Shown: in pieces, positions 26,992 through 53,208 of the stretch
Numbering within the stretch: position 1 is the stretch's first letter
Layout: each line of letters begins with the position of its first letter
Assembly (NCBI GenBank): GCA_009787785.1
Contig: WQSR01000001.1
Coordinates: forward strand, 12-64,011
Length of the DNA: 64,000 nucleotides
Direction of reading: 5' to 3'
Source: Defluviitaleaceae bacterium
GTDB lineage: Bacteria > Bacillota > Clostridia > Lachnospirales > WQUN01
Made by a program: the position numbers and the translations under genes
Notes under the pieces: generated by a model
What the model was told of the DNA's origin: nothing
Database searches by the model: none
What the model saw: only the letters and a program-made list of their open reading frames with translations

Positions 26992-26993
26992 AA

Positions 26994-33891: not shown

Positions 33892-33908
33892 GGAAGGGAT
33901 TGATTTAT

Positions 33909-37996: not shown

Positions 37997-38043
37997 ATGT
38001 TAAAAGGCAAGGTGCAGAGAGCATTATAAGGAGATTGAGTGAG

Positions 38044-39231
38044 ATGCGTTTAATAACCAAAGCAATAAAATCCCTTCAAAAAAGAGGATTGCGTGAATCA
38101 ATTAAGAGATTTTTGTTTTATATGATGGTTAATAATAAAATGTTCGAAGATTGGATCGTTCAAAAGACTACACAGCAAGTAAATTTGACGCTTAATGATT
38201 GTATTAATCAACAAATCGATTTGATAGTTAATAAACTTACAAGAAATGACTTGTTTGAGACATACATGAGTCATCGAATCGAACCTCAAGCTAATGATCT
38301 TATATATTATGCGAAGCATAGAAGAATATTATTTTCATGGTATTATTATTGGCCAAATAATATGATATTACATGAATTGGAAAATTTGGCATTAAGTCAT
38401 TGGTCATGGAAATATGAATATAAGCAGTTATGGTTAATCTATTGTGCATGTTTATTGGACAAGGGGCGAGATGAGGAAGCCGAACGTGTGCTAAAAAGAT
38501 ACGAAAAATTATATAAAAAACATGAAATTGAACAATTGTTGCCTGTAGCTGACTTTGCAAGTCGCATAGGCATTTCCAATGATTCAATAGAAAAGTCAAG
38601 TTTGATATATAAAATGTTTCAAAAAAACAAAAAAACTAACCATATAGTAAGTTATATGAAAGATAAAAAAATTGCAGTGGTTAGTAATGGGGATGCCTGT
38701 CTCGGTAAAGGCTTAGGCAAAGAGATTGATGCAAATGATATAGTTGTCCGGTTTAATTGTTTTGATAACACAGCGCGGGGAAATGATTATGGCAATAAAA
38801 CATCGATTTGGGTAAAATGTTTATCCGTTCAGGACGAAGATAAAAATATTGAAAATATGGATTATGTTTTATACAGTTGGGACGTGAATCGCTTTTTTTT
38901 TAGTGAAAACCATCTTAATATATTGTATGATTATGCTTGTTCCCATCACGATAAGCTAACATACATCGACGGTGATTTAATTCGTTCATTGCTTGATGAT
39001 TCTCTACTTACTATTTCAACATCAGGATGTAACGTTTTTTACTATTTATATAAATTGTTTGGTAATTTTCACAATATTAACGCTTACGGATTTAGCTTCT
39101 TAACTTTAGACTATGATAATAGGAATCATTATTATGAAAACAAAAAAATCCCTGATGAACTTGCTAAATTTAATGATTTATACACAGAGTATAACTTCTT
39201 GAATAACCTATATTTTAATAATAAGGAATAA
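38044..39231 (+). CDS. GT29-like (sialyltransferase-motif) glycosyltransferase
   Basis: This is a 395-aa protein. The N-terminal half (residues 1-200) is charged and helical with no recognised domain. The C-terminal half carries the sialyl motifs otherwise best known from animal GT29 enzymes. Motif L is IAVVSNGDACLGKGLGKEID followed by NDIVVRFNCF. A motif S-like segment is TISTSGCNVFYYLYKLF...NAYGF, and a motif VS-like H-Y-Y-E is near the end. GT29 members transfer sialic acid or Kdo-type sugars from CMP donors; the donor genes lie downstream in this locus. AAGGAG favours the ATG at 38044 over the TTG at 38035. No transmembrane anchor is visible. Confidence 0.75.
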   Translation: MRLITKAIKSLQKRGLRESIKRFLFYMMVNNKMFEDWIVQKTTQQVNLTLNDCINQQIDLIVNKLTRNDLFETYMSHRIEPQANDLIYYAKHRRILFSWYYYWPNNMILHELENLALSHWSWKYEYKQLWLIYCACLLDKGRDEEAERVLKRYEKLYKKHEIEQLLPVADFASRIGISNDSIEKSSLIYKMFQKNKKTNHIVSYMKDKKIAVVSNGDACLGKGLGKEIDANDIVVRFNCFDNTARGNDYGNKTSIWVKCLSVQDEDKNIENMDYVLYSWDVNRFFFSENHLNILYDYACSHHDKLTYIDGDLIRSLLDDSLLTISTSGCNVFYYLYKLFGNFHNINAYGFSFLTLDYDNRNHYYENKKIPDELAKFNDLYTEYNFLNNLYFNNKE

Positions 39232-39367
39232 AGAAAATCCATGAAAATATGGTGCAATATCTATAAATAAAAAGAATTATTGTAAAGTAAATATATACAA
39301 ATTAGGGAGCCTTGCTTTTAAACCAACAAATGCTTCCTTAATTATATAAAAAAAGGATGAAGATAAA

Positions 39368-40180
39368 ATGAGAAATATTCTTGTATGCGGTAATGGCCCA
39401 TCGTGTACGAAAATTGATTTTACCCGAGTACCAGATGACGTAAAAATTATGAGAGCGACTTCTTTTTATTTCGAGGATAAATATTATGCGGGTAAGCGTG
39501 TGGATTATTACGTAGATTACATGAAGCGGATTGTGAACCAGTATTTTGTTGTTCGTACCGTTCACGATAAAGGCGAGTACGATATTGATTTAGCAAATAC
39601 ATGGTGGACGGTAATGCATGAAAAAAACCCACATTTCCCCGCTGCCAAATCATGTACGGATTATATACAGCAAAATATATACATTGCTGAGTTTAGATGC
39701 TTTTACGAATATTACTACGGACAATATTTACCTACGGGAATGCAAGCACTTGCATTGGCTTTTTGCTTGGGGTATGAAAATATTTATGTTGCCGGGTTTG
39801 ATATGTTTACAGACCCCAACAATATGCATCCTTTCCCTTACGGGGGAAAGGTAATGCAGGCCGCGCTTGAAAGCGTTCCTTCTACGGGCATTTATGATAC
39901 GAGCGAAGTGAAAAGCGAAAATAAGTCCGAATTTGAATATGTGCAAGTGCTTCGTCCAACCGATATGCAGGTAAAGTTTGTACAATTATTGCAAAAATGT
40001 TTTCCCAAAACAAAAATCATGAGTGTGGTTGAAAATAGTATTATGAATCAACATGTGACCGTTGCACCCATTATACATGATGTGCCTTGGTATGTGCCAC
40101 AAAAAAAGCCGACAGACAGAACAACCGATTGGTATCCCCTACCGGAAAGTATGCCTAGCAGAAGGAGAAACACACAATGA
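39368..40180 (+). CDS. GT42-like sialyltransferase (Cst-II type)
   Basis: This 270-aa protein begins ILVCGNGPSCTKIDFTRVPDD, then MRATSFYFEDKYYAGKRVD. This matches the conserved N-terminal CMP-binding pattern of Campylobacter Cst-II (AGNGPSLKEIDYSRLP... FYFEDKYYLGKK). TGMQALALAFCLGYENIYVAGFDMF corresponds to the second half of the CMP-binding fold. GT42 enzymes transfer sialic or related nonulosonic acids from CMP donors. The 136-base gap before it holds only AT-rich sequence with a weak hairpin (39304-39338). Its stop overlaps the next start by four bases. Confidence 0.85.
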   Translation: MRNILVCGNGPSCTKIDFTRVPDDVKIMRATSFYFEDKYYAGKRVDYYVDYMKRIVNQYFVVRTVHDKGEYDIDLANTWWTVMHEKNPHFPAAKSCTDYIQQNIYIAEFRCFYEYYYGQYLPTGMQALALAFCLGYENIYVAGFDMFTDPNNMHPFPYGGKVMQAALESVPSTGIYDTSEVKSENKSEFEYVQVLRPTDMQVKFVQLLQKCFPKTKIMSVVENSIMNQHVTVAPIIHDVPWYVPQKKPTDRTTDWYPLPESMPSRRRNTQ

Positions 40181-41220
40181 CGGTAAAATACGGCAAGCCT
40201 ATGGCGGGTGTTATGCCTTTTAAGGAATTGTTTTTTAATGAAAACGAAAAAATGCTAAAGTGGGGAGCGGCGGCCTTAGCACTGTATAAACAACAACCCA
40301 AAAGAACCGGTTGCAAGCTGTGTAGCACCCCCCTTCCGAAAGAATTTTATGTTAAAAGCCACGGGTTTGCATTTTATTTATGCGGTGAATGTGGGCATTT
40401 AAACGGTGAATTTGAAGAAACCGATGCCTATAACAGGAATTTTTTTGTGCTACCGGAAAGTAAAATAAGTGACATGTATCATGTGGAGTCGCAAATAAAA
40501 TTTGATGAAAGAACCGATAAGATTTATGTGCCCAAGGTGCAATTTATTATAGATTCATTGGCGGAAACAGGTGTTAACGTAGCAGCATTACAATATTTGG
40601 ATGTGGGTGCAGGTTCGGGTTATATGGTTGCGGCTATGCGAAAAAAAAGATTGGCTGCAAGCGGTGTAGAGGTAAGTGCGCCGCAGGTGGCACTGGCTAA
40701 CACAATGATACCCGCGCCGCAGGCGGTACGTGTTTGCGACCCTTCGGACATTGTACAAATCGCGTTAACAGAAGAAGCCGATGTACTTACTTTTATAGGG
40801 GTGCTTGAGCATATCCCTAATTTGCAGGCGGTATTACAAGCAATAACACAAAATAAAAGTGTTAAATATATGTTTTTTTCTGTGCCCTGTTTGGCATTTT
40901 CCAACGCTATTGAAGCAGTTTTTCCGCAGGTATTTGGCAGGCATATGGGGCACGGGCACACCCACGCGTTCAGCAATCGCTCATTGGAATGGATGTATAA
41001 AAACTATGGCTTTGAGCCTATTGCCGAATGGCGGTTTGGCGGAGATATTATGGATTTATACAGGTCAATAATGGTGTCGCTTAAAGAAAATACTGACGAA
41101 AATTTCATGCGAATGATAGCGGACTTTTTTCAAGAAAATGGTGATGCCCTACAGCTTATTATTGATAAAGCGGGTTTATCATCAGAAATACATGTATTAG
41201 TAAAAAATGCAGGAGCATAA
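40177..41220 (+). CDS. SAM-dependent methyltransferase with N-terminal zinc finger
   Basis: This is a 347-aa protein. A four-cysteine zinc knuckle CKLCSTPL...YLCGECGHLNG lies near residues 45-75. It is followed by a class I methyltransferase domain with YLDVGAGSGYMVAAM (motif I), ASGVEVSAPQ and LTFIGVLEHIPNLQAVL. A C-terminal HTHAFSNRSLEWMYKNYGF segment resembles motifs in sugar C- and O-methyltransferases. C-methyltransferases of deoxysugars also begin with such a zinc finger, so sugar methylation is likely, on a nonulosonic acid or deoxyheptose. It overlaps the GT42-like gene by four bases. Confidence 0.83.
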   Translation: MTVKYGKPMAGVMPFKELFFNENEKMLKWGAAALALYKQQPKRTGCKLCSTPLPKEFYVKSHGFAFYLCGECGHLNGEFEETDAYNRNFFVLPESKISDMYHVESQIKFDERTDKIYVPKVQFIIDSLAETGVNVAALQYLDVGAGSGYMVAAMRKKRLAASGVEVSAPQVALANTMIPAPQAVRVCDPSDIVQIALTEEADVLTFIGVLEHIPNLQAVLQAITQNKSVKYMFFSVPCLAFSNAIEAVFPQVFGRHMGHGHTHAFSNRSLEWMYKNYGFEPIAEWRFGGDIMDLYRSIMVSLKENTDENFMRMIADFFQENGDALQLIIDKAGLSSEIHVLVKNAGA

Positions 41221-41221
41221 A

Positions 41222-42853
41222 ATGAATATATTAGCCGTTATCCCTGCAAGGGGCAATTCAAAAGGTATACCCCGCAAAAATATGCGTTTGATGCACGGTA
41301 AGCCTTTATTGTTTTATTCCATTGCCACAGCAAAGAAGTGTAAATATATTACACAGGTGGCGGTTTCATCAGAGGATGCGGAAATATTGGAATATGCGCA
41401 GTCGATGGGTGTAACGGCACTGCCCAGAAGTATTGAGTTGTCGGGCGACGACATAACCCTAGACCCGGTTGTGTATGACGGGTTAGTTAAAATGGAAGCA
41501 CATATGCATTGTGCATATGATTATATAATTACTATGCAACCCACCTCACCTTTATTGTCTGCTTTAACATTGGAAAGTGCGATTGAATGCGCGGTTAGTA
41601 ATGCGTACGAAACGCTGATAAGCGCGACCAATAAGCCCTCTCTTTCGTGGCGAAGAGAGGGCGATTCTATTTTACCCAATTACCAAAAACGCCTGAACCG
41701 GCAACGGCTACCCGCGAACTATATAGAAACGGGGGCCTTTGTTGTTAGCAAGCGGCATGTGGTAACCAACGCTACACGCATTGGGAAGTATATAAATGTA
41801 TACGAGTTGCCCGGCCATGAGATAATTGATATAGATACTATGGAGGACTGGTTTGCTTGCGAGGCTTTGATGAACCGCAAGCGTATTGTATTCCGTGCCG
41901 ATGGGTCAAGAGAATTGGGTATGGGGCATATATACCGGTGCTTAACCTTGGCATATGAGCTTACGGGGCATGACATTTACTTTGTGTGTGACGAACGGTA
42001 CTTGCCGGGGATAGAAAAAATTGAAGGCAGCTACTTTTATTGTTATAAAATCAATAGTAGCCCCTTGTTTTACAGCCTGTTGGATGAGATAAAGCCGGAC
42101 ATAGTGGTAGTGGACATGCTTAACACCCATGAAGCCGACATGAAGGAGATTAAAACCCGTACGGGTCGGCTGGTTACGCTGGAGGATTTGGGGACGGGAA
42201 CCCATGTAGCCGACGCGGTTGTAAATGAATTGTATACAAATAAAGATAGTCGGCCCCATGTATATACCGGGCATAAATATGCTTGCTTGCGAGAAGAATT
42301 TTTAAGAAGAATGCCTAAGCCGTTTTCCCCGCAGGTTAAAAATATTTTTATTATGTTTGGTGGCAGTGACCCTTCAAACCTAACAAAAAAAGTATATGAA
42401 ATGGTATGCAATTACAATGCGCAGCTTGCGGGTATTTGTTTTAACTTTATCACGGGATTGGCGTATGATTATGAGGTAAACTGCATTGTTGATAACCCCG
42501 AAAAAAATATTTATGTGCATAACAACACACATAAGGTAAGCTGGTTTATGCAACAGGCGGATTTGGCAATATCATCTAAGGGTAGGGGAACGATGGAGCT
42601 AGCCTCCATGGCTGTGCCCGCTATTGTGCTGGCAGCAAATAATAAAGAAAAATCCCACGGGTTTGCTAAGCTGGAAAATGGGTTTGTTAACTTGGGTTCG
42701 GGTGCTGACATCTCTGAGCAAACCTTGTTTAATACATTAAAATGGTTAATTGATACCCCGCAAACGAGAAAAGAAATGCGTGAGTTGATGCTGGGCTTGG
42801 ATTTAACAAATGGGATAAACCGAGTGAAAAAAATTATCTTAGGTGATAAATAA
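41222..42853 (+). CDS. CMP-nonulosonate synthetase fused to PseG-like UDP-sugar hydrolase
   Basis: This is a 543-aa bifunctional protein. Residues 1-225 are a NeuA/PseF-type cytidylyltransferase (VIPARGNSKGIPRKN; TMQPTSPLLSALT; IIDIDTMEDW). Residues 230-543 are a PseG-like GT-B-fold hydrolase (GMGHIYRCLTLAY with the catalytic His; FIMFGGSDPSNLT; SSKGRGTMELASMAVPAI). PseG removes UDP to give the hexose used by the synthase encoded next. The fusion thus joins the hydrolase and activation steps on either side of the condensation. AGGAG before 41222 defines the start. PseB, PseC and PseH partners are not in this window. Confidence 0.88.
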   Translation: MNILAVIPARGNSKGIPRKNMRLMHGKPLLFYSIATAKKCKYITQVAVSSEDAEILEYAQSMGVTALPRSIELSGDDITLDPVVYDGLVKMEAHMHCAYDYIITMQPTSPLLSALTLESAIECAVSNAYETLISATNKPSLSWRREGDSILPNYQKRLNRQRLPANYIETGAFVVSKRHVVTNATRIGKYINVYELPGHEIIDIDTMEDWFACEALMNRKRIVFRADGSRELGMGHIYRCLTLAYELTGHDIYFVCDERYLPGIEKIEGSYFYCYKINSSPLFYSLLDEIKPDIVVVDMLNTHEADMKEIKTRTGRLVTLEDLGTGTHVADAVVNELYTNKDSRPHVYTGHKYACLREEFLRRMPKPFSPQVKNIFIMFGGSDPSNLTKKVYEMVCNYNAQLAGICFNFITGLAYDYEVNCIVDNPEKNIYVHNNTHKVSWFMQQADLAISSKGRGTMELASMAVPAIVLAANNKEKSHGFAKLENGFVNLGSGADISEQTLFNTLKWLIDTPQTRKEMRELMLGLDLTNGINRVKKIILGDK

Positions 42854-42854
42854 T

Positions 42855-43925
42855 ATGCAAAGTATAATTATTGAAAGAGCAAAAAAAGGCACGTTTACAC
42901 TTATTGCCGAAATTGGTGTAAATTATTACGATATTGCCGCGCAAAGGGGCATAACGCCCATTGCGGCCGCTTGCTTAATGGTTGACCATGCCTTGGCAAG
43001 CGGGGCACATGCGGTAAAATTTCAAACCTATAAGGCGCAAACCCTTGCCGCGAAAGCGTCTCCCTCGTATTGGGATTTAAGCGAGGAACCTACCTGTTCT
43101 CAGTTTGAGCTGTTTAAAAAGTTTGATAGCTTTAACGAGCAAGAATATGCGCAAATAGCAAAGCATTGTATGGACATGGGTATAGAGTTTTTATCCACCC
43201 CTTTTGACTTTGAAAGTGCGGATTATTTGGATAAATATATGGCTGTATATAAAATATCTTCCTCTGATTTAACCAATATCCCTTTTATTAAACATATCGC
43301 GGGTAAGGGAAAGCCCATACTCTTATCTGTAGGCGCATCCAACGTGGATGAGATTGATGCTACGGTGCGCACAATTAGGAAGATAAACCAACAGCCCCTT
43401 GTGTTATTGCACTGTGTTTTAGAATATCCGACCCCTGTGACCCACGTTAACTTAAACCGCATCGTTTCTTTAAAAGAGCGATACGATGGTGCATTTATCG
43501 GTTATTCAGACCATTCCGTACCTGACGCAACCAAGGATGTAATTAAAGCGGCTTACCTTTTGGGTGCGCGTGTTATTGAAAAGCACTTTACATTGGATAA
43601 AACACTGAAGGGGAATGACCACTACCACGCTATGGATGTAGCCGATGCAAAGGACATACTTAACAAAATAAGCCATATTGAAGCCCTTTGCGGAAACGGA
43701 GATTTGGTTGTGCTTGAAACAGAGGCAGCTGCGCGCCGCAATGCGCGTCGTTCTGTAGTAAGCACAAGAGAAATTTCTGCCGGGCAAGTTATAACGACAG
43801 AAATGCTAACCTGCAAGCGGCCCGGCACGGGCATACCCCCCGGTGAGCAAGACAGGTTGGTAGGCATGAAAGCAAAAATAAACATAAATGAGGACACCCT
43901 TTTGCAATGGGATATGTTTAATTAA
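42855..43925 (+). CDS. NeuB-family nonulosonic acid synthase
   Basis: This 356-aa protein has an N-terminal TIM barrel (FTLIAEIGVNY, AVKFQTYKAQTL, FLSTPFDFESADYL, YKISSSDLTNIPFI, IGYSDHS, VIEKHFTLDK) and a C-terminal SAF/antifreeze-like domain from about residue 295 (RRSVVSTREISAGQVIT). It condenses phosphoenolpyruvate with a 6-carbon diacetamido or N-acetyl sugar to a nine-carbon acid. The neighbouring PseG-like domain suggests pseudaminic acid, but legionaminic or another acid cannot be excluded. AGGTG before the ATG at 42855 supports the start. Confidence 0.9.
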   Translation: MQSIIIERAKKGTFTLIAEIGVNYYDIAAQRGITPIAAACLMVDHALASGAHAVKFQTYKAQTLAAKASPSYWDLSEEPTCSQFELFKKFDSFNEQEYAQIAKHCMDMGIEFLSTPFDFESADYLDKYMAVYKISSSDLTNIPFIKHIAGKGKPILLSVGASNVDEIDATVRTIRKINQQPLVLLHCVLEYPTPVTHVNLNRIVSLKERYDGAFIGYSDHSVPDATKDVIKAAYLLGARVIEKHFTLDKTLKGNDHYHAMDVADAKDILNKISHIEALCGNGDLVVLETEAAARRNARRSVVSTREISAGQVITTEMLTCKRPGTGIPPGEQDRLVGMKAKININEDTLLQWDMFN

Positions 43926-43943: not shown

Positions 43944-44951
43944 ATGGCTAAAAGTGTTATGGACAGAGGCTCAATTAAACGTTATAGCAATGAGGCAGTT
44001 TTCGATGAATTGAGAAAAATATACGGCGGTGCCTATGATAAATACCGTAACGATTGGGAAACGGCGGGTAAATTGCAGGTGAAGGAGGAACGTCCAAGCC
44101 ATTTGTTGATGGAATTAACCTCGCATTGTAATATGTTGTGTAAAATGTGCTACCGCAATTACGTACCTGAACGTGTTGAAGGGTATATGAAAATGGAGAT
44201 TGTTGACAAGATAGTGTGCGAAGCAAAAGCCTTAAAGGTACCCAGCATATTTTTGGGGGCAGGGTCTGAATGTTTGTTACACCCTGAAATTACATTAATT
44301 TTAAAGAAATTTGCTGAAGTTGGGGCTATGGATTACTGGATGATATCAAATGGCTCATTACTTACGCACGAAATAAGTGAGGCAATTATTGACGCGCAGC
44401 TCACGGTATTTTCTGTATCATTGGATGCCGCTACGCCGGAAACCTATGAAAAAATACGGGGAAACGGGGGCAAATACAACTTGGAAACGGTTACACGCAA
44501 TATTATGGAGTTAATAAACCTACGGGAGCGTAAAAACAAAATGTTCCCAAGGATTCGCCTTTCTTACGTAGTGATGGATGAAAACGAGCATGAAGTAGAA
44601 CGATTTAAAAAACAATGGGATGAATATGTAGATATGTTTGATTTTCAAGCATTAACGGATTACGCTTTATATGAGAAAATTATTGAAGATGTCAGTATTG
44701 AAGAAGATTATCACTGTCCGGATCCGTTTTCAAGAATTGTAATAAATTATAAGGGAGATATGCACCCTTGTGTAAGTAATTTTTATCGGCCGGAGGAGCC
44801 CGTAAATATACAAGATATGTCGATAAAGGAATATTGGTATTCATCGGCGATAGAGGCATTACGTGTAGCCGTTAAAAATAGAGCGTTTCCGAAAAGTTGT
44901 ACTCGGTGTGTGGCAGCACGGCTGGCAATGGAGAACACTAAAAAGTGGTGA
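43944..44951 (+). CDS. Radical SAM protein with SPASM-like C-terminus
   Basis: This 335-aa protein has the 4Fe-4S motif TSHCNMLCKMCYRNYV near residue 60, LGAGSECLLHP and FSVSLDAATPETYEKIRG as the radical SAM barrel blocks. The C-terminal cysteines (YHCPDPFSR, MHPCVSNF, KSCTRCVAA) form a SPASM/twitch-like auxiliary cluster site. Enzymes with this layout carry out dehydrogenations or epimerisations, including on aminosugars (as in BtrN), or modify peptides. Its place between NeuB and FkbH suggests sugar chemistry. Confidence 0.8.
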   Translation: MAKSVMDRGSIKRYSNEAVFDELRKIYGGAYDKYRNDWETAGKLQVKEERPSHLLMELTSHCNMLCKMCYRNYVPERVEGYMKMEIVDKIVCEAKALKVPSIFLGAGSECLLHPEITLILKKFAEVGAMDYWMISNGSLLTHEISEAIIDAQLTVFSVSLDAATPETYEKIRGNGGKYNLETVTRNIMELINLRERKNKMFPRIRLSYVVMDENEHEVERFKKQWDEYVDMFDFQALTDYALYEKIIEDVSIEEDYHCPDPFSRIVINYKGDMHPCVSNFYRPEEPVNIQDMSIKEYWYSSAIEALRVAVKNRAFPKSCTRCVAARLAMENTKKW

Positions 44952-44957
44952 TTATAA

Positions 44958-46679
44958 ATGGTAAATGAAATCATTTCTTACCCTTTTGACAGTATTGAGA
45001 TTATTAAAAAGAAAAAAGCGATAAAGCGACAATTACGGCGGCAAGACGCCCTGCTGGAGGTGCGTATTGCCATAATGAGCGGCTCAACCGTGGGGGTTGT
45101 TAGTGATGTGCTTGAGCTTTTCTTATTGTATTTTGGCATAAAGCCAATTTTTTTTATAGGCAATTATAACCGCTATTATGAGGAGCTACTGTTTGAAAAC
45201 CGGGAGCTGTTTGCTTTTTCGCCTGATATAATTTATATACATACGTCGATACGTAATGTAACGGATACCTTTGAAATTGAAAAATTTAAGGTGATGTGGG
45301 ATAAAATTAGAGAAGTTTACGCATGTACGATAATACAAAATAATTTTGAATTGCCCGGTTATTATGAAGCTGCCCTATGTAAAAAAATAAATGAATATAA
45401 TGTGTTTATTGCTGATTATGCCTTGAAAAACAATAATTTTTATGTTAATGATATTCAGTTTTTGTCTGCTTGGTATGGTTTAGGCGCATGGTTGGACGCA
45501 CAGGATTATATGCTGTATAAATACGCGCTAAGTATAAAAGCGATTCCTCATTTATCCTATCAAATTGCAAAAATTATAAAGTCAATGTATGGTAAAAACC
45601 AAAAATGCTTGGTGCTTGATTTGGATGACACCCTATGGGGTGGAATAGTTGGGGAAATTGGCACGGAGAAAATAGAAATAGGAAGCGATACTGCCCTTGG
45701 CGAGGGGTATAAAGCGTTCCAAAAGTATGTAAAGACGTTGCATGAACAAGGAATTATCTTGGCTGTTTGCTCTAAAAATGAAGAAAAAATTACAAGGGAT
45801 GCGTTTAATAATCCCAACATGGTTTTATCCCTTGAAGATATTACCGTTTTTTGCGCAAATTGGGATAATAAGGCGGATAATATAAAATATATTGCCGCGC
45901 AATTAAACATACTCCCAGAAAGCATCGTATTTATTGACGACAACCCCGCAGAGCGTGAGCTGATACGGCAGGCCATACCGCAGGTAAAGGTGCCGGAGGT
46001 AAATAATGTAGTCGATTTTATACGGCACATTGAGGAGGCCGGATATTTTTATACTACGAGGGTAACCGAGGAGGATAAAAAACGCAATCAATATTATGCA
46101 AATGAAGTAAAGAGAGCGAATGAGGAGGAGCTGTTTGCGGACTATAGTGCCTATTTGCGTTCTTTGTGTATGACAAGTGAAATAGAGGCGTTTTCATGGG
46201 CAAGCATAGAAAGAATTGTGCAGTTAATAAATAAAACCAATCAGTTTAACTTTACAACTCGGCGTTATAGTATCCATGAAATAAATGATGTAATGATAAA
46301 TAGCCAATATATTACCTTGTATGGTACCCTTGATGATAAATTCGGAAGTAATGGTATTGTGTCGGCAATCATTGGTAAAGCCCAAGCGGATGTTTTGCAC
46401 ATTACGCTGTGGGTGATGAGTTGTCGCGTTTTTAAGCGTGATATGGAGTGTGCTATGCTTGACCGATTGGTTAAAATGGCGCGGGATGCCGGAATAAGCA
46501 AAATAGTAGGCTGTTATTACCCAAGTGCCAAGAATGGAGTTGTACGCGAATTATATAAGGACATGGGTTTTAATAAAACCAGCGAGGATGAAAGCGGCAA
46601 TACGGTGTGGGCGTTGCATACAAGCAGCTATGTTAATAAAAATAAAGTAATAAGTGTTACGCGAGGAAGGACGGTATAA
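44958..46679 (+). CDS. FkbH-like HAD-IIIC protein
   Basis: This is a 573-aa protein. It has an N-terminal SGNH-like region (IAIMSGSTVGVVSDVLELF), a central HAD-IIIC domain CLVLDLDDTLWGGIVGE with the two nucleophile-loop Asp residues (about residues 215-225) and VFIDDNPAERELI. A C-terminal GNAT-like domain (VMSCRVFKRDMECAMLDRL... YYPSAKNGVVRELYKDMGF) follows. FkbH-type enzymes dephosphorylate 1,3-bisphosphoglycerate and load glyceryl onto an acyl carrier protein; an ACP gene lies 1.7 kb downstream in the same operon. The overall layout is complete. Its product is likely a C3 acyl-ACP used to decorate a sugar (inference). Confidence 0.86.
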   Translation: MVNEIISYPFDSIEIIKKKKAIKRQLRRQDALLEVRIAIMSGSTVGVVSDVLELFLLYFGIKPIFFIGNYNRYYEELLFENRELFAFSPDIIYIHTSIRNVTDTFEIEKFKVMWDKIREVYACTIIQNNFELPGYYEAALCKKINEYNVFIADYALKNNNFYVNDIQFLSAWYGLGAWLDAQDYMLYKYALSIKAIPHLSYQIAKIIKSMYGKNQKCLVLDLDDTLWGGIVGEIGTEKIEIGSDTALGEGYKAFQKYVKTLHEQGIILAVCSKNEEKITRDAFNNPNMVLSLEDITVFCANWDNKADNIKYIAAQLNILPESIVFIDDNPAERELIRQAIPQVKVPEVNNVVDFIRHIEEAGYFYTTRVTEEDKKRNQYYANEVKRANEEELFADYSAYLRSLCMTSEIEAFSWASIERIVQLINKTNQFNFTTRRYSIHEINDVMINSQYITLYGTLDDKFGSNGIVSAIIGKAQADVLHITLWVMSCRVFKRDMECAMLDRLVKMARDAGISKIVGCYYPSAKNGVVRELYKDMGFNKTSEDESGNTVWALHTSSYVNKNKVISVTRGRTV

Positions 46680-46680
46680 A

Positions 46681-47523
46681 ATGGATAATGAGGCGACTGC
46701 GCTAAAAAAAATAAGAAAAAATATTTTCCTAACCGCCTGTGCGGGTGGGGTTGGGCATTTGGCATCTGCTTTTTCGATTGTTGAAATTATTTACGCATTA
46801 TATATAAAAGGTGTGCTTTGCCATGACAGTAAAAACCCAACATGGGAGGGCAGAGACCGATTTATATTAAGCAAGGGGCATGGTTGCTTGGCACTGTATA
46901 ATGTGCTTAGTCTTGGCGGATATTTTGAGGAAGATGAGCTGTGGACGTTTTGCCGCCCGGGGTCACGTATGGGGGGCGAGCCAAATGTTTTGGAACTGCC
47001 CGGGGTTGAGGCTTCTACCGGTTCGCTGGGGCATGGCTTGTCTATTGGCGTGGGTATGGCGTTGGCCGCAAGGGCAGATAACATGGACAATAAAATATAT
47101 GTGCTGGTTGGTGACGGTGAATGCCAAGAGGGCTCCATATGGGAAGCCGTTATGGCGGGAATGGCATTTGGGTTGGACAACCTTTATGTGATTCTTGACG
47201 AAAATAAATTGCAAAAGATGGGCTTTGTCAGTGATATTATGCGAATCAATTGTTGGGAGGAAAGGTTTAAGGCATTTGGGTGGCAGGTAAAAAAAGCAAA
47301 TGGACACAATGTGGCGGATATATATAAGCAATTAACGGGGGAATGGACGGCCGGTGTGCCGCGGGTGTTAATTGCCCAAACAACAAAGGGTAAGGGCGTT
47401 TCGATAATGGAAAACGCACCGGGCTGGCATTGGAAAATGCCAAACAAGCGAGAACTTAAAATAGTAATGCAGGAATTAGGTATAACCGAGGAGGAGCTTG
47501 AAAAATGCAAAAGGCATATATAA
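46681..47523 (+). CDS. Transketolase, N-terminal (TPP-binding) subunit, copy 2
   Basis: This 280-aa protein has ILSKGHGCLALYNVL, GSLGHGLSIGVGMALA, and the TPP motif VGDGECQEGSIWEAV with the paired Asn in ILDENKLQ. All catalytic residues of the family are present. It differs clearly from copy 1 at 26152 and has the more canonical His in SKGHG and GSLGHG, where copy 1 has SKSHA and GSLGCG. It overlaps its partner gene by 19 bases. Placement between the FkbH and ACP genes suggests a role in making an acyl or ketol unit, not only pentose-phosphate chemistry. Confidence 0.88.
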   Translation: MDNEATALKKIRKNIFLTACAGGVGHLASAFSIVEIIYALYIKGVLCHDSKNPTWEGRDRFILSKGHGCLALYNVLSLGGYFEEDELWTFCRPGSRMGGEPNVLELPGVEASTGSLGHGLSIGVGMALAARADNMDNKIYVLVGDGECQEGSIWEAVMAGMAFGLDNLYVILDENKLQKMGFVSDIMRINCWEERFKAFGWQVKKANGHNVADIYKQLTGEWTAGVPRVLIAQTTKGKGVSIMENAPGWHWKMPNKRELKIVMQELGITEEELEKCKRHI

Positions 47524-48422
47524 CCGCACTGTATGGGCTGATGCTTGGCGATAAACGGGTTTGCTCTTTATTGTCAGACAGTGGAACGGAGTATGACGCG
47601 CTTATTTTTCGTGAGTTTCCTAACCGGTGCTTTAACTTTGGTATTGCCGAGGAAAACAAGGTGGCGGCAGCCTCCGGGTTGGCTGCGTTTGGAAAAATCC
47701 CCTTTGTGTATACTACGGGGGCATTTCTTGCGTATCGGGCATATGAATTTATAAGAAATGATATATGCATACAAAAGAGTAATGTAAAGCTTACCGGAAT
47801 GGGGACCGGAATGGGGTGGAGCACATTAGGGCCCTCTCACCACACTACAGAAGATATAAGCGCGTTGCGCGCATTACCCAATTTAACGCTGTTTATTCCG
47901 GCAAGCCCGATGGAGCTGCAGGCTTGTGTTAAGGCGGCGTATGAAATAGAGGGGCCTGTATATATTCGTATGTGTATGCACGATAATGACGAGATATATG
48001 ACGCGGGCTATACATTTGTACCGGGCAAAAATATAGTATTGGCAAATGGAAGCGAAATTGTTGTTTTTTCAACGGGGAGTATTGTATCGGAAGGGCTTGC
48101 GGCGACAAAGCTTCTTGAGGAAAAGGGTGTTTCTGTAAGGTTTGTTAACGTTCATACACTTAAACCGCTGGACAAAGAGAACATTATTGCCGTTGCAAAG
48201 GATGTACGGCATATTTTTACGCTTGAGGAGCATACGGTTTTAGGCGGATTGGGCGGGGCCGTTGCAGAGGTGCTTGCAGAGGCGGGGCTGGGTGTGCCGG
48301 TAAAGCGAATTGGCTTGAACGATTGTTTTGCCGCGGGGTATGGTACGCAGGCAGAGGTTAAAAAAATGAATGGACTGGATAGTGCGCACATATTTAATAA
48401 AATTTGGGAGGCCATAAAATGA
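47505..48422 (+). CDS. Transketolase, C-terminal subunit, copy 2
   Basis: This 305-aa partner of the preceding gene has FNFGIAEENKVAAASGLAA (catalytic Glu), GMGWSTLGPSHHTTEDISAL (phosphate-side His pair) and FTLEEHTVLGGLGGAVAE. It has no lipoyl or fused carrier domain. The stop overlaps the ACP start (ATGA), so the ACP is translationally coupled to this transketolase half. That is the strongest hint that the two act together. Confidence 0.88.
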   Translation: MQKAYITALYGLMLGDKRVCSLLSDSGTEYDALIFREFPNRCFNFGIAEENKVAAASGLAAFGKIPFVYTTGAFLAYRAYEFIRNDICIQKSNVKLTGMGTGMGWSTLGPSHHTTEDISALRALPNLTLFIPASPMELQACVKAAYEIEGPVYIRMCMHDNDEIYDAGYTFVPGKNIVLANGSEIVVFSTGSIVSEGLAATKLLEEKGVSVRFVNVHTLKPLDKENIIAVAKDVRHIFTLEEHTVLGGLGGAVAEVLAEAGLGVPVKRIGLNDCFAAGYGTQAEVKKMNGLDSAHIFNKIWEAIK

Positions 48423-48664
48423 CAAGAGAAATTGTATTGGAAAGAATGACACAAATATTCCGTGACATATTTGACGACGAAAGCATTAATGTGGTTGACG
48501 CTACTCATGCCGACGACATTGAGGATTGGGATAGCTTGGAGCATATTAACCTGGTGTTGGCGGTTGAAGAAGAATTTGACATTAAATTTACCCTGCCTGA
48601 GGTTACCGATGCGAAAAATGTGGGCGATATCGTAGACATTATCGTACAACGCGGTACGTTGTAA
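48419..48664 (+). CDS. Acyl carrier protein
   Basis: This 81-aa acidic four-helix protein has the 4'-phosphopantetheine attachment serine at S39 in IEDWDSLEHINLVLAVEEEF. GGGAGG precedes the ATG at 48419, favouring it over an upstream TTG. It overlaps the transketolase stop and the MaoC start. It is a dedicated carrier within the glycan operon, not the housekeeping fatty-acid ACP, judging by context. Confidence 0.9.
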   Translation: MTREIVLERMTQIFRDIFDDESINVVDATHADDIEDWDSLEHINLVLAVEEEFDIKFTLPEVTDAKNVGDIVDIIVQRGTL

Positions 48665-49095
48665 TGAAGGAATATACATTTGAGGAGATAACGATAGGGC
48701 AAGAGGAAAGCTTTTGCGTTGAAATAACGAAAGAAAAAATGGATGCGTTCCGTGTAATTACCGGGGATGAAAACCCCCTTCACCATGATGCGGTTTATGC
48801 GGCATCTCAAGGATTTGGGGGCGGGGTTGTCTCTTATGGTTTGCTTACCGCCTCTTTTTTATCCACGTTGGCGGGTATGTATTTGCCGGGTAGGTATAGT
48901 CTTATCCATAGCGTTGAGGTGAAATTTCCGAAGGCTGTGTGTGTTATGGATAAAACAACCCTTGTTGTACGCGGAAAGGTTGCCGAAAAGCAGGATATAT
49001 TCAACGTACTTATGATAAAGGTTGCCATTGAAAATGAAGATGGTGAAAAGGTTTGCAGGGGTACAATGAAGGTAGGGGTAAGGGATGAAAAATAA
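48664..49095 (+). CDS. MaoC-like hot-dog dehydratase/hydratase
   Basis: This 143-aa protein has the hydratase motif TGDENPLHHD (about residues 36-45), with the catalytic Asp and His spaced as in R-specific enoyl hydratases, and GFGGGVVSYGLLTASFLS. It would act on an acyl group held by the neighbouring ACP, adding or removing water. It overlaps the ACP stop by one base and the SDR start by 11 bases. Confidence 0.85.
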   Translation: MKEYTFEEITIGQEESFCVEITKEKMDAFRVITGDENPLHHDAVYAASQGFGGGVVSYGLLTASFLSTLAGMYLPGRYSLIHSVEVKFPKAVCVMDKTTLVVRGKVAEKQDIFNVLMIKVAIENEDGEKVCRGTMKVGVRDEK

Positions 49096-49819
49096 AAAGG
49101 TGCTTATGGTAACGGGGGCATCTTCAGATGTAGGCATGGGGCTGATACGAAAAATACAAAGTAATTACACCCACATTATTGCCCATTATAACCGTAGTAA
49201 AGACAGGGTACAGGCACTGGAACATGAATTGGAGGGCAGGGTTGTACCCATGCAGTGCGACTTTGCTGATAAAGACGCAGTTGACGCGCTGGCACAGCAA
49301 ATTATTGACCTTGATATAGTGCCAACGCATTTTGTGCATATGCCCAATAGCCCATTAAACAACGCAAAATTTAATAAAATGCAATGGCATGATTTTGAAG
49401 ATGAAATGTATACTTCGTTTCGCTCGGCTGTTATATTGCTTCAATCGTTTGTTCCTGCAATGGTTAAACAAAAAAACGGGAAGGTTGTTTTTATGCTGAG
49501 TTATTGCTTGGTAAACACGCCGCAAATAAAATTTGCGGTGCAATATACCTGTGCTAAATACGCGCTTTTGGGGCTTATGCGGGGTTTGTCCACGGAGTAT
49601 GCCCATAAGGGTATCACCGTAAATGGGGTATCCCCATCCATGATTGAAACACGGTATTTGAAGGACGTACATGCGTTAATTGTACAAAAAAATGCCGCCG
49701 AGAGCCCTTTGAAAAGAAACTTGTATGTTGATGATGTAATAGGCGCGTTTGAATTTTTTTTATCCGAAGGTGCGAATTGTATAACCGGCCAAAATATTGC
49801 CGTGACGGGTGGAAAATAA
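49085..49819 (+). CDS. Short-chain dehydrogenase/reductase (FabG-like)
   Basis: This 244-aa classical SDR has the cofactor loop VTGASSDVGMG, the VHMPNS strand (replacing NNAG), the catalytic S in MLSYCLVN, and YTCAK as the Tyr-x-x-x-Lys pair. The C-terminus has the CITGQNIAVTGGK end typical of FabG. It would reduce a 3-ketoacyl-ACP or oxidise the matching alcohol. Tight overlap with the MaoC gene supports joint action on the acyl group. Confidence 0.86.
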   Translation: MKNKKVLMVTGASSDVGMGLIRKIQSNYTHIIAHYNRSKDRVQALEHELEGRVVPMQCDFADKDAVDALAQQIIDLDIVPTHFVHMPNSPLNNAKFNKMQWHDFEDEMYTSFRSAVILLQSFVPAMVKQKNGKVVFMLSYCLVNTPQIKFAVQYTCAKYALLGLMRGLSTEYAHKGITVNGVSPSMIETRYLKDVHALIVQKNAAESPLKRNLYVDDVIGAFEFFLSEGANCITGQNIAVTGGK

Positions 49820-49822
49820 GCT

Positions 49823-51895
49823 ATGTCATATATAAGCTTTCTGCAAATAGCCCATGTGTTGGGAATAAAAAAAGGTGATAATATTTTGGTTTCTTCGGAT
49901 ATTACCCGGTTGGCGTATTTATGCTGTTCACATGGCGAAAAATTTGACACAAACCTGTTTATTGACAGCCTAAAAGAAGCGGTGGGTGAAGGAGGCAGCC
50001 TTGTTTTTCCAACCTATAATTGGGATTTTTGTAAAGGAATTGCGTTTGATTACCGTGCTTCCAAGTCAGAGGTAGGTTCCCTTTCAGATGCGGCATTAAA
50101 AAGAAATGATTTTACGCGTACAAGGCATCCTATTTATTCGTATGCTGTTTGGGGGAGGGATAGGGAAGCACTGTATTCCCTTGCTAACAGGAGTGCATGG
50201 GGTGAGGGTAGCCCATTTGATTATTTTTACCACAACGGGTACAAAAATTTAGCTATTGATGTTGCATATGATAAATTTGCCACCTTTATCCATTATTGTG
50301 AGGAAAAGGTAGGTACTACCTATAGATATATGAAGGATTTTACCGGGGAATACATAAACGAACGCGGTGTAAGTGAAGGGCGCACCTATTCCATGTATGT
50401 TCGCCCACAGTATTATAACGTCACAACGCAAATATATAAAATGGATGAGATATGGCAAAAAAATGGTGTTGTTAGGGAATTTGAAATAAACGGGTTGCCG
50501 TTTGTATTAGTTGATATGAAAAAGGCATGTGATTTAACAGAGGCGGATATAAAATACAACCACAGTAGAAACATTGTAGCTTACCCGGGGTATGGAATGC
50601 CTACTAATACAGGAATAAGCATTCATATGCTGGCTGTTCGTCTGTTCCCTATCTGCCGTAGTTTAACGGGTAATGGTGTACGAAAAACATTAAATGTTTT
50701 ACAAGAAATAGTACCGCAAATGCAGATAAATGAAGTGCCCAGCGGCACGCAGGTTTTTGATTGGACGGTGCCTAATGAATGGAATATAAAGGATGCCTAC
50801 ATTAAAGACGAAAACGGAAGCACGATATTGTCATTTGCCCATAACAATCTTCATGTTGTGGGTTATTCCGCACCTATTGATAAAATGGTAACGCGGAATG
50901 AGCTTATGGAAATGGTGTATACACAGCCTGACCAGCCGGATGTGATTCCTTATGTGACATCCTATTATAAAGAGCGGTCCGGCTTTTGCATGACCGAACA
51001 CCAACGAGAAACGCTTAACGGGGCACGGTATCATGTTTATATTGACAGCGAATTAAAAAAGGGGTCGCTTACGTACGGGGAAATAGTTATCCCTGGAGAA
51101 AGTGAACAAGAAATACTTTTATCTTCTTATATTTGCCACCCCTCTATGGCGAATAATGAATTGTCCGGCCCTTGTGTTGCGATTCATCTTGCAAAGTGGT
51201 TGCTGGAGCAGCCACGCCGTTATTCTTATCGAATTATTTTTATACCCGAGACTATTGGTCCAATTACGTATTTAAGCCGCAATTTAGAAGCTATGAAAAA
51301 GCGGGTAATTGCCGGATTTAATTTGACCTGTGTGGGCGATAATCATGCGTATTCCTATATTGCTTCCCGTTATGGCGATACATTGGCTGACCGTGTCGCC
51401 AAAAATATTTTACGTTTCCACGCGCCCGGGTATAGGTCCTATTCCTACTTGCAACGCGGGTCGGACGAACGGCAGTATAACGCGCCGGGGGTTGACTTGC
51501 CGGTGTGTGTTATCTGCCGCAGTAAGTTTGGTGAATTTCCCGAATATCATACTTCTGACGATAATTTAGAGTTTATTTCCCCGGAAGGGCTGGGGGGCGC
51601 GTTTGATGTTTACCAAAGATGTATTATAGCGTTGGAGAATAATTATAAATATAGAATAAAATGCTTGGGCGAGCCGCAACTGGGGAAGCGCGGATTGTAT
51701 CCAACGGTTAGCCAAAAAGGGCAATATGATGAAGTGAAAAGTATGATGGATTTTATCGCCTATGCGGATGGTTTAAATGATTTAATATCAATTAGTAATA
51801 TAATAAATGTGTCGATAAATGATTTGATTCCAATTATAAAAAAATTATGTGATGTAGAATTGCTGGAAATCGGAGGAAATAAAGAACATGCGTGA
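49823..51895 (+). CDS. AAC(3)-like acyltransferase fused to DUF4910 aminopeptidase-like domain
   Basis: This is a 690-aa protein. Residues 1-260 are an AAC(3)-family N-acyltransferase-like domain (GEGGSLVFPTYNWDF, ASKSEVGSLSDAALKR, RHPIYSYAVWG, FATFIHYCEEKVG). Residues 265-690 are a DUF4910/M28-like zinc hydrolase domain (LFPICRSLTGNGVRKTL; SSYICHPSMANNELSG; FIPETIGPI; SEFPEYHTSDDN-like GEFPEYHTSDDN). A short winged-helix end follows. The first domain can attach an acyl group to an amino sugar and may take it from the operon's ACP. The second might remove or rearrange such amides. Both roles are inference from families and context. Confidence 0.82.
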   Translation: MSYISFLQIAHVLGIKKGDNILVSSDITRLAYLCCSHGEKFDTNLFIDSLKEAVGEGGSLVFPTYNWDFCKGIAFDYRASKSEVGSLSDAALKRNDFTRTRHPIYSYAVWGRDREALYSLANRSAWGEGSPFDYFYHNGYKNLAIDVAYDKFATFIHYCEEKVGTTYRYMKDFTGEYINERGVSEGRTYSMYVRPQYYNVTTQIYKMDEIWQKNGVVREFEINGLPFVLVDMKKACDLTEADIKYNHSRNIVAYPGYGMPTNTGISIHMLAVRLFPICRSLTGNGVRKTLNVLQEIVPQMQINEVPSGTQVFDWTVPNEWNIKDAYIKDENGSTILSFAHNNLHVVGYSAPIDKMVTRNELMEMVYTQPDQPDVIPYVTSYYKERSGFCMTEHQRETLNGARYHVYIDSELKKGSLTYGEIVIPGESEQEILLSSYICHPSMANNELSGPCVAIHLAKWLLEQPRRYSYRIIFIPETIGPITYLSRNLEAMKKRVIAGFNLTCVGDNHAYSYIASRYGDTLADRVAKNILRFHAPGYRSYSYLQRGSDERQYNAPGVDLPVCVICRSKFGEFPEYHTSDDNLEFISPEGLGGAFDVYQRCIIALENNYKYRIKCLGEPQLGKRGLYPTVSQKGQYDEVKSMMDFIAYADGLNDLISISNIINVSINDLIPIIKKLCDVELLEIGGNKEHA

Positions 51896-52866
51896 AAATC
51901 CTTTTAACCCTATATATAAAAAACTAAACACAGGCTTGGCTAAAACAATTTCACATGAAATGCCATTGCTTATTGATATAGAAGTAACCAATGCGTGCAA
52001 TTTTAATTGTCTTTTTTGCTATACAGGAACGAAAGCGCATAAGCGGCGTACAGGTTTTATGAGCAAGGAGTTGTTTAAAAAAATTATAAATGAGACTATG
52101 CCCTATAAAATACCATTGCGTTTTAGTCGGTGGGGGGAGCCTACAATGCACAAGGACATATTGTATTTCTTGAGCGAAACAAAGCGGGGGGGGGGCGTTG
52201 TGTCATTTGAATACAAATGGTTCTATGGTGGATGATGAATTTTGTGATGCGATATTGCAGATGAAGCTCGACAGTTTAAAGTTTTCATTTCAAGGAACCG
52301 ACGAAAAAACATATAGTGAAATGAGGTATGGGGAAAGTTTTAACAAATTAGTGGATTCGGTAAAAAGAATTTATCGAATGCGTGGCACTCTTTTATACCC
52401 TTATATACATGTAGCAACGACAATCACTTATGAGACGCCGGAAATGGTTGCGGCATTTAAGGATATGATAAGCCCTTATTGCGATTATGTTTCGGTTGGG
52501 GCAACAAATTTAACGCATATATCGTCAGAACAGATTAAATTACCTGTTGAAGCAAAAGTGTTACTTGATGAGTTGAAGTCTATTGCATCAATAAAAAAAG
52601 AGTATCGGGTTTGTAATGAAGTGTATGATAAACTATCACTAAATTGGGACGGTACGGTAAGTGCCTGTTGTGGCGATTATGACAATTATATGATAGTAGG
52701 GAATATAAATGAAACCTCAATTCAAGAAATTTGGAAAAATAGTAGTGAATTAAAACGTTATCGTTCTTTGTTAACTGATTTTAAACATGAAATGTTACCG
52801 TTGTGTAAGAATTGCTACGATACGATGAATTTAAAAGCATCAAGTGTAAAAAACAAAGGAAAATGA
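51888..52866 (+). pseudogene. Radical SAM/SPASM protein, out of frame at a 10-G run
   Basis: The first frame (51888-52235) has the radical SAM motif TNACNFNCLFCYTG and then FSRWGEPTMHKDIL. The second frame (from about 52198 to 52866) continues with LNTNGSMVDDEF, the SFQGTDEKTYSEMRYG block and SPASM-like cysteines (CNEVYDKL, ACCGDYD, LCKNCYD). Deleting one G from the run at 52186-52195 joins them as ...KRGG-ALCHLNTNGS..., exactly the conserved strand expected after the cysteine motif. The whole protein would be about 325 aa. It is therefore either switched off in this copy by slipped-strand mispairing or affected by a homopolymer sequencing error. The start overlaps the preceding gene by eight bases. 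Confidence 0.85.
52186..52195 (+). repeat. Homopolymer run of 10 G at the frameshift
   Basis: Ten consecutive G bases occur inside the radical SAM coding region. Nine (or twelve) would restore a full-length reading frame, and ten does not. Confidence 0.9.
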
Positions 52867-52872
52867 GTTATT

Positions 52873-53154
52873 ATGAAAGCAATTATTTTTGGAGCCGGTG
52901 AAGGCGGAAAGCCTTTATTTGCTGAAATGAAAAGAAATGGTGAACCATATGAAATAGTGGGGTTTATTGACAACAGGCTAAAGGGCACAGAGTTGTATGA
53001 TTTACCTGTTATTTCGCCTGAACAAATACAATCTTAACGGTTGCTTTTTGCAAATTCTATTCCTCTAATTATACGCGAAACCGAAATGCAGGATATTGAT
53101 ACAGAAGATGATTGGGCGATTGCTGAAATGAAATATAACCGGCAAAGGGTATGA
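52873..53154 (+). pseudogene. Remnant joining a NeuD-like N-terminus and a NeuA-like C-terminus
   Basis: Bases 52873-53037 encode 54 aa beginning MKAIIFGAGEGGKPLF and IVGFIDNR, the start of a PglD/NeuD-type or related Rossmann domain, then stop. The same frame resumes directly (53038-53154) for 38 codons with PLIIRETEMQDIDTEDDWAIAE. This is the typical C-terminal motif of acylneuraminate cytidylyltransferases. Two unrelated gene ends have thus been fused by deletion and then interrupted. Both parent families belong to nonulosonic acid biosynthesis. The identification of each short fragment is by motif only. Confidence 0.6.
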
Positions 53155-53208
53155 CGGCCCGTTCCCGTTTTATTCGGCTATACGATTCTGGAATTTGGTT
53201 CACCTTGT

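Follow-up and report, generated by a model that had tools for sequence, protein, structure and literature searches.

Among described systems, the Cj1295-Cj1302 system of Campylobacter jejuni, which yields 5-N-(2,3-di-O-methylglyceroyl) pseudaminic acid, provides a precedent for placing an unusual acyl group on an amino sugar. In this bacterium, cj1295, which encodes a DUF4910-like protein, is required for N5-dimethylglyceroyl pseudaminic acid, and the working hypothesis published for it is that a glyceroyl-type group takes the place of an N-acetyl (PMC3068675); strain 12664, which has a broken fkbH gene (cj1302), is without the dimethylglyceroyl group (PMC7099621). In other settings, FkbH-type proteins provide precedent for glyceryl-ACP chemistry (PMC3679948; PMC4979870) and for a route to D-lactate-ACP (PMC7901079). 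A literature search for Cj1300/1302/1304 together with an acyl carrier protein (ACP) returned nothing direct.

The window analysed here (64,000 nucleotides of contig WQSR01000001.1 from a Defluviitaleaceae bacterium) contains seven genes in one tightly packed operon, all on the + strand, that adjoins PseF-PseG and NeuB-type genes. We consider it probable that the enzymes of this operon assemble a single short hydroxyacyl group on an ACP of their own, that the group is extended to C5 by a transketolase, and that it is then swapped onto an amino sugar of a glycan. The operon and its flanking radical SAM genes are as follows.

43944-44951, + strand: radical SAM/SPASM protein, possible operon member (PF04055, PF13186)
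44958-46679, + strand: FkbH-type protein, HAD-IIIC fold with N- and C-terminal domains (TIGR01686; DLDDT, CSKN and DDNPAE motifs; PDB relative 3slr)
46681-47523, + strand: split transketolase N subunit (TKN), ThDP-binding domain with an altered pocket (PF00456, E 5e-42; closest solved structure 6yak)
47505-48422, + strand: split transketolase C subunit (TKC), Pyr and C domains (PF02779, PF02780; closest solved structure 6yaj)
48419-48664, + strand: discrete ACP (PF00550 above cut-off; DSL serine motif, DSLEHI)
48664-49095, + strand: MaoC-fold (hot-dog) hydratase/dehydratase (PF01575, E 3e-12; GDENPLH motif; D35/H40)
49085-49819, + strand: FabG-like SDR reductase (PF13561, E 1e-33; YTCAK)
49823-51895, + strand: AAC(3)+DUF4910+DUF2172+HTH_47 fusion (PF02522, PF16254, PF09940, PF16221; PDB relatives 3k9t, 3e4f)
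51888-52866, + strand: second radical SAM/SPASM gene, split into two frames at a G tract (52186-52195)

An earlier note on this DNA had described these genes as consecutive, with overlapping ends, and probably as one pathway. All of the genes it named were found in the order it gave, and they are consecutive; the ends overlap at most junctions, the exceptions being two gaps of 1-3 bases (neighbour distances from FkbH to the fusion are +1, -19, -4, -1, -11 and +3 bases). The radical SAM genes lie +6 (upstream) and -8 (downstream) bases from the module, and a radical SAM gene is likewise found 5' of FkbH in loci L092 and L088. The gene order is not due to chance, since L035 and L099, from two further genomes, both show FkbH-TKN-TKC-ACP-MaoC-SDR arranged identically.

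The FkbH-type protein scores 273 bits against TIGR01686, above the curated cut-off of 146.65, and is predicted to take D-glyceryl from 1,3-bisphosphoglycerate and load it onto the ACP. From what is known of its family, it would thus provide an ACP-bound C3 unit, which MaoC, by dehydration, and the SDR, by reduction, would rework; in loci that lack the transketolase, these two steps would yield a lactyl-type group. The D35/H40 dyad of MaoC is kept across the family alignment, and its activity on glyceryl-ACP is argued by analogy with polyketide synthase precedents. In the weakest step of this proposal, the split transketolase, with a pocket unfit for sugar phosphates, would lengthen a keto or aldehyde intermediate on the ACP by two carbons and so give a C5 hydroxyacyl. 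The DUF4910 domain would strip the resident N-acetyl from an amino sugar, probably a nonulosonic acid; its fusion partner AAC(3) would then place the ACP-borne acyl group on the freed amino group. Several observations count against this explanation: the transketolase is missing from most relatives, L084 and L091 have their ACP and MaoC with no SDR close by, PseB and PseC do not exceed their family cut-offs in the genome, and further amino-sugar genes of the locus could supply the acceptor.

By comparing genomes, it was found that module-type MaoC is present in 20 of 392 genomes of the order, every one of which also contains an FkbH over cut-off. A class-wide search with a MaoC profile identified 3 of 391 genomes, two of them G113 and the one from which the window comes; the module is therefore found chiefly in this order, though outliers exist. 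The earlier proposal of one pathway is supported by this distribution, as ACP, MaoC and SDR travel together, FkbH accompanies them, and the enzymes predicted to acylate sugars are exchanged at the same place beside ACP-MaoC-SDR, where an MBOAT protein, a PglD-like hexapeptide acyltransferase or AAC(3)/DUF4910 can be found. For example, the ACP module adjoins MBOAT genes in L035, L083, L099 and L115, most of them with SGNH/AlgX-type partners; a literature search for FkbH with MBOAT returned nothing direct. A strict six-gene pathway is rejected on these same comparisons, because most loci lack the transketolase and some genomes have ACP-MaoC-SDR with FkbH elsewhere; genomes of this sort are what the earlier note had named as its refutation. 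For the same reason, the commonest arrangement being FkbH-ACP-MaoC-SDR, the transketolase pair counts as an optional extra of this module and not as an integral part of it.

The fusion protein consists of an AAC(3)-type N-acyltransferase (about residues 1-260), a DUF4910/DUF2172 zinc-aminopeptidase-like region of the Cj1295 type, and HTH_47, and it looks like a de-acylase/re-acylase. The features that define the Cj1295-type system (DUF4910/DUF2172 plus an AAC(3)-like domain, here fused, with FkbH and ACP in the same cluster) are present, and the N-acyl reading has precedent because DUF4910, AAC(3) and FkbH match the Campylobacter system. The earlier suggestion that the AAC(3) domain transfers an N-acyl group gains from the recurrence of an AAC(3)-ACP-DUF4910 trio, loaded by either FkbH or an AMP-ligase, and further from C. 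jejuni cj1295 and cj1302 (PMC3068675; PMC7099621). DUF4910-AAC(3)-ACP-FkbH genes are contiguous in L104 and L106, where MaoC, SDR and transketolase are absent; an AMP-ligase takes the place of FkbH beside AAC(3)-ACP-DUF4910 in L110-L112; and L084 and L091 contain AAC(3)-DUF4910 or DUF4910 with ACP and MaoC, and no SDR nearby.

These simpler loci bear on the reading that, as in Campylobacter, N-acylation uses a C3 acyl only, glyceroyl or lactoyl, made by the module, with the transketolase acting on a sugar or supplying a small metabolite. The sets in L104 and L106, the frequency of FkbH-ACP-MaoC-SDR loci and the C3 glyceroyl derivative of Campylobacter (PMC3068675) are all consistent with it. 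We nevertheless regard it as unlikely, as it leaves unexplained why genes for an altered transketolase separate those of FkbH and ACP, and why the pair was perhaps inherited with MaoC, whose tree fits a single origin of the pairing in a weak clade (support 68/46).

The case for extension to C5 depends on the transketolase pair itself. Alignment shows that the catalytic and ThDP-binding residues are kept in the module pair (the GDGE motif, the catalytic Glu, and the GH and SKGH His). In all complete module pairs R358, H461, R520, D469 and H100 (E. coli numbering) are replaced by Q, G, M, L and E, so that the C subunit has lost the phosphate-binding Arg/His/Arg and retained the catalytic Glu. 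The His of the GHP motif is a donor contact in transketolase; every module member whose N subunit is complete has Glu there, and GSLGHG in place of GSLGQG. The nearest solved structure by sequence for both subunits is the split transketolase of Carboxydothermus hydrogenoformans (6yak/6yaj), in which the phosphate- and donor-binding residues missing from the module pair are conserved. A housekeeping role was rejected for the pair, since a full-length transketolase is encoded elsewhere in the same genome and the pocket residues differ.

The altered pair is also found in four other species, each time adjoining FkbH, and the Bacilli locus L100 combines it with FkbH-ACP-MaoC in a shuffled order, an aldo/keto reductase replacing the SDR. 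The module-clade C subunit occurs in only 3 of 385 genomes, each of which also carries module MaoC and FkbH; these three score 586, 578 and 324 bits, and the next hit 259. In the FkbH tree, the pair-bearing proteins do not form one clade, and several changes are needed, at least three of them on well-supported branches; this led to rejection of a single co-inherited transketolase-FkbH block and means that transketolase and FkbH came together on more than one occasion or were reshuffled.

The persistence of the pair with FkbH-ACP-MaoC across a changed order, a changed reductase and separate FkbH lineages, together with the loss of every aligned phosphate-contact residue checked and the presence of the full-length enzyme, argues against a role outside the acyl pathway, in which the pair would be merely co-operonic and would form or use up a ketose phosphate in the metabolism of one of the locus sugars (sedoheptulose 7-phosphate, say, to serve the heptose genes). 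That alternative draws on a second split transketolase pair (26152-27911) ahead of the heptose genes of the same locus, on ordinary split pairs in the glycan loci L043 and L107, and on the many module loci without a pair; it too seems improbable to us. Much less credible still is oxidative loading of a two-carbon glycolyl onto the ACP, the tetrahydroisoquinoline-type parallel raised in the earlier note. A ThDP enzyme pair does adjoin a carrier protein here, but a domain search found no lipoyl domain in any module protein, as the earlier note had said, the module has no other oxidant, FkbH is already the predicted loader, and the donor-contacting His is lost; oxidative loading was rejected for want of a lipoyl partner. 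A literature search on the vazabitide transketolase returned nothing direct.

Two-carbon extension of an FkbH-loaded C3 unit on the ACP, with no ketosynthase, is inferred to be the likely role of the pair. Put in full, the pair could be a carrier-protein-dependent, ketosynthase-free extender that joins the ACP-held C3 unit to a C2 unit, giving a branched or linear C5 hydroxyacyl. The fused de-acylase/acyltransferase would exchange this for the resident acyl group of an amino sugar, or, in related loci, MBOAT enzymes would place it on a polymer; we favour this complete version only tentatively.

The putative acceptor is suggested by genes upstream of the operon.

39368-40180, + strand: CST-I (GT42) sialyltransferase-like protein, possible nonulosonate transferase (PF06002, E 2.5e-19)
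41207-42853, + strand: PseF-PseG-like fusion, cytidylyltransferase plus UDP-sugar hydrolase (TIGR03584 and TIGR03590, under cut-off)
42843-43925, + strand: NeuB/PseI-type nonulosonate synthase (TIGR03569 294 bits, TIGR03586 215 bits, both under cut-off)

This neighbourhood makes a nonulosonic acid a plausible acyl acceptor: PseF-PseG and NeuB run straight on into the operon, the AAC(3)-ACP-DUF4910 trio of L111 adjoins PseF, PseG and NeuB, and the Campylobacter acceptor is pseudaminic acid. Transfer to another sugar, such as an amino-heptose or the product of the DegT aminotransferase at 33900, which could supply an acceptor, is less probable, yet somewhat better placed than the C3-only and ketose phosphate readings. 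The same locus contains GDP-heptose genes and epimerases as well as DegT, no PseB or PseC exceeds its family cut-off in the genome, and the DUF4910 loci L104 and L112 are without NeuB in the stretch examined.

These observations suggest a plug-in acylation kit, common to many Clostridia and relatives, in which the loader (an FkbH or an AMP-ligase), the enzymes that tailor the ACP-bound unit and the sugar acyltransferase can each be swapped, and they bear on the open question of how bacteria make the many odd N- and O-acyl substituents of their glycans. For the Cj1295/DUF4910 family, which is poorly understood, they also suggest a mechanism that can be tested, in which an N-acetyl would be trimmed off and the amino group then re-acylated from an ACP. 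The altered transketolase pair may lengthen the acid in a manner not seen before; if this step is true, it would be a new way of making C-C bonds on a carrier protein.

The methoxymalonyl-ACP pathway combines FkbH and ACP with 3-hydroxyacyl-CoA dehydrogenase, acyl-CoA dehydrogenase and O-methyltransferase. The FkbH-ACP units of this and other polyketide pathways (tetronates, glycerate and D-lactate starters, FR901464) share FkbH and a discrete ACP with the module, and lactate starters involve DH/KR-like tailoring of carrier-bound glyceryl, as proposed here; in contrast, the module lacks a ketosynthase and, by domain search, both dehydrogenases, and its output enzyme is a glycan acyltransferase. 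The ACP-MBOAT modules of relatives resemble MBOAT-based (Dlt/Alg-like) surface O-acylation, in which a carrier protein feeds DltB, except that the loader is FkbH rather than an AMP-ligase; MBOAT is absent from the module in the window and present in many relatives. The Campylobacter system, a likeness set by shared families and published annotation rather than direct sequence comparison, has in common with this locus DUF4910/DUF2172, AAC(3)-like and FkbH proteins in a nonulosonate locus, and homopolymer tracts. It differs in that AAC(3) and DUF4910 are a single protein here, MaoC, SDR and split transketolase are extra, and sialyltransferase-like genes and an ABC exporter stand where Campylobacter has its Maf/flagellin setting. 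Finally, azinomycin AziC5/C6 is a two-gene transketolase recruited for two-carbon extension of a non-phosphorylated aldehyde (PMC9570651); its acceptor is a glutamate semialdehyde derivative, whereas the acceptor proposed for the module pair is ACP-bound.

The module occupies positions 44958-51895 of the window as seven reading frames on the forward strand, as follows.

Reading frames of the module in gene order, all identified by profile search
+ strand; FkbH (TIGR01686, 273 bits), motifs DLDDT, CSKN and DDN intact
+ strand; transketolase, its N and C halves (TKN, TKC) as separate frames
+ strand; acyl carrier protein (ACP), DSL motif intact
+ strand; MaoC-fold protein, GDENPLH motif intact
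+ strand; FabG-like short-chain reductase (SDR), YTCAK motif intact
+ strand; a single fusion of AAC(3), DUF4910, DUF2172 and winged-helix domains, with FIHYCEE intact in AAC(3) and CHPS, PETIG and HTSDD in DUF4910

The earlier note had described these genes as consecutive with overlapping ends; they are consecutive, and the intervals (+1, -19, -4, -1, -11 and +3 bases) comprise four overlaps and two short gaps. The module runs on unbroken into PseF-PseG, NeuB-type and radical SAM genes of a glycan locus that is low in GC (39%, vs 51-54% outside) and also encodes an ABC exporter. This single bacterial locus further contains two adjacent sialyltransferase-like genes (38035-40180) that belong to different families, GT29 and CST-I/GT42.

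The proposal that the module genes form one pathway gained support from their co-occurrence elsewhere. Searching 392 genomes in the order with a profile built from the module's MaoC recovered 20 at E <= 1e-49 (next best, 6e-36), all 20 of which encode an FkbH over the curated cut-off; for comparison, any FkbH match was present in 24 of 146 related genomes, a set that overlaps the 20 and is not phylogenetically independent of them. Among 22 MaoC loci outside the window, ACP lay in the same stretch in 19, SDR in 19 and FkbH in 15, these stretches being at most 20 kb long, some cut by contig ends and several from fragmented metagenome assemblies. FkbH-ACP-MaoC-SDR is the recurrent core, and the acyl-handling enzyme after it differs between loci (L numbers denote loci in other genomes, G numbers those genomes): an MBOAT protein, often with SGNH/AlgX-type partners (L035, L083, L099, L115 and others), a hexapeptide acyltransferase (L088, L089, L090, L092, L093), or AAC(3)-DUF4910 (the window and L084, 53% identity over 685 residues). 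This exchange of output enzymes is the strongest indication that the module makes an acyl group, which ACP passes on to a sugar or polymer. Two loci with DUF4910 and without SDR carry a SIR2-family gene straight after MaoC (L084:10376-11095, L091:8765-9517).

The transketolase pair is rarer than this core. Its C-subunit clade was found in only 3 of 385 genomes of the order (586, 578 and 324 bits; next, 259), all three of which also encode the module MaoC and FkbH; in the third (G023) the pair sits on a 3 kb contig of its own. When the C subunit was used to scan about 85,000 species genomes, four further clade members emerged, all adjoining FkbH. An Oscillospiraceae MAG (L099) and a Clostridiales MAG (L101/L035) have their genes in the order seen in the window, followed by MBOAT, the locus of a Peptococcaceae MAG (L102) ends at a contig end, and an uncultured Bacilli genome (L100:2246-9915) has FkbH-ACP-MaoC-MBOAT-SGNH-aldo/keto reductase-TKN-TKC. 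The shuffled order of L100, with an unrelated aldo/keto reductase where other loci have SDR, argues for a functional link between the pair and FkbH-ACP-MaoC and not a frozen operon. Pair-linked FkbH proteins are not one clade in the tree (well-supported branches require three or more changes), and pair-linked MaoC proteins might be one (support 68/46).

Module pairs were aligned with the Carboxydothermus split transketolase, with human transketolase, and with the transketolase and DXS of the genome itself. By sequence, the nearest solved structures for the two subunits are those of the Carboxydothermus enzyme (6yak and 6yaj). The module pairs retain the catalytic Glu and the His residues of the ThDP pocket. 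Every complete module pair has Q, G, L and M at the positions aligned with E. coli R358, H461, D469 and R520, respectively, which were located by way of the genome's own transketolase, and has Glu in place of the donor-contact His of the GHP motif; E. coli numbering and residue roles are as generally given. These replacements suggest that sugar phosphates would no longer fit the pocket, and a separate full-length transketolase is encoded elsewhere in the genome. Given such a pocket, and an operon that otherwise appears to act on ACP-bound units, an ACP-bound acceptor is the most economical reading. A second, different split pair lies in the glycan locus at 26152-27911, ahead of two B12-radical SAM genes and the GDP-heptose genes, and in the alignment it also lacks the usual GHP and THxG..GED motifs.

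What the sequences show is the gene set, its motifs, its co-occurrence and the exchange of its parts; the chemistry of the pathway is predicted. From family knowledge, FkbH would make glyceryl-ACP, the known product of the family (PMC3679948; PMC4979870). MaoC could dehydrate this to an enol/pyruvoyl unit for reduction by the SDR, a sequence matching the D-lactate-type starters that can come from FkbH loading modules (PMC7901079, citing Zhang 2011). With the transketolase, a two-carbon carbanion would be added to the ACP-bound pyruvoyl ketone. Acetohydroxyacid synthases add such a carbanion likewise, with pyruvate. Alternatively, the addition may be to a tartronate-semialdehyde unit made by the SDR working in the oxidative direction, for which the methoxymalonyl route offers a comparison. 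The resulting 3-keto product would suit a FabG-like reductase. Oxidative C2 loading, which the earlier note mentioned for tetrahydroisoquinoline pathways, is disfavoured because profile search found no lipoyl partner among the module proteins. A precedent for a non-phosphorylated acceptor is azinomycin biosynthesis, where a transketolase likewise encoded by two genes, AziC5/C6, extends a non-phosphorylated aldehyde (PMC9570651).

A search for the fusion in 385 genomes found its halves as separate neighbours in G204 and G229, in contiguous DUF4910-AAC(3)-ACP-FkbH sets (L104, L106) that contain no MaoC or SDR. In L110, L111 and L112, an AMP-binding ligase replaces FkbH beside the AAC(3) and DUF4910 genes, accompanied by a carrier protein in L110 and L111 and by a carrier-sized gene with no Pfam match in L112; L111 also has PseF, PseG and NeuB. 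As judged from gene neighbourhoods, AAC(3), ACP and DUF4910 are therefore a recurring trio with interchangeable loaders. As to the acceptor sugar, the window's nonulosonate genes fall short of the cut-offs set for pseudaminic acid enzymes, and family profiles found no PseB or PseC over cut-off in the genome; the acyl group could therefore go to a different amino sugar of the glycan locus.

At the operon end, a 10-G run (52186-52195) breaks a radical SAM/SPASM gene (51888-52866) into two frames, a pattern resembling that of phase-variable genes of the Campylobacter type or, alternatively, reflecting an assembly slip. Three further G/C tracts, 8-11 bases long, lie inside B12 radical SAM, methyltransferase-like and DegT genes (29832-29842, 31207-31215 and 34127-34134, respectively), and no comparable runs occur elsewhere in the window; this confinement to glycan locus genes suggests that the glycan of this uncultured organism is phase-variable. 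Downstream of the operon, 52874-53160 holds short remnants, read by eye, that resemble sugar-nucleotide genes in decay, with an NAD-binding start and a PseF-like end.

The window fusion can be likened to Cj1295 of Campylobacter jejuni through shared families and published work, not sequence comparison; we take Cj1295 to be a DUF4910 member and Cj1296/7 to be of the AAC(3) family. In strain 11168, 5-N-(2,3-di-O-methylglyceroyl) pseudaminic acid requires cj1295, which encodes an aminopeptidase-like protein proposed by the authors to cleave the N-acetyl group, and its neighbour Cj1296/7 is listed as an N-acetyltransferase (PMC3068675). In addition, strain 12664 carries the FkbH gene cj1302 as a pseudogene and has no dimethylglyceroyl sugars, a correlation from one strain (PMC7099621). 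Whereas Cj1295 and Cj1296/7 are separate proteins, the corresponding AAC(3) and DUF4910 domains are fused in the window, where by analogy a proposed de-acylase and re-acylase would be joined in one chain.
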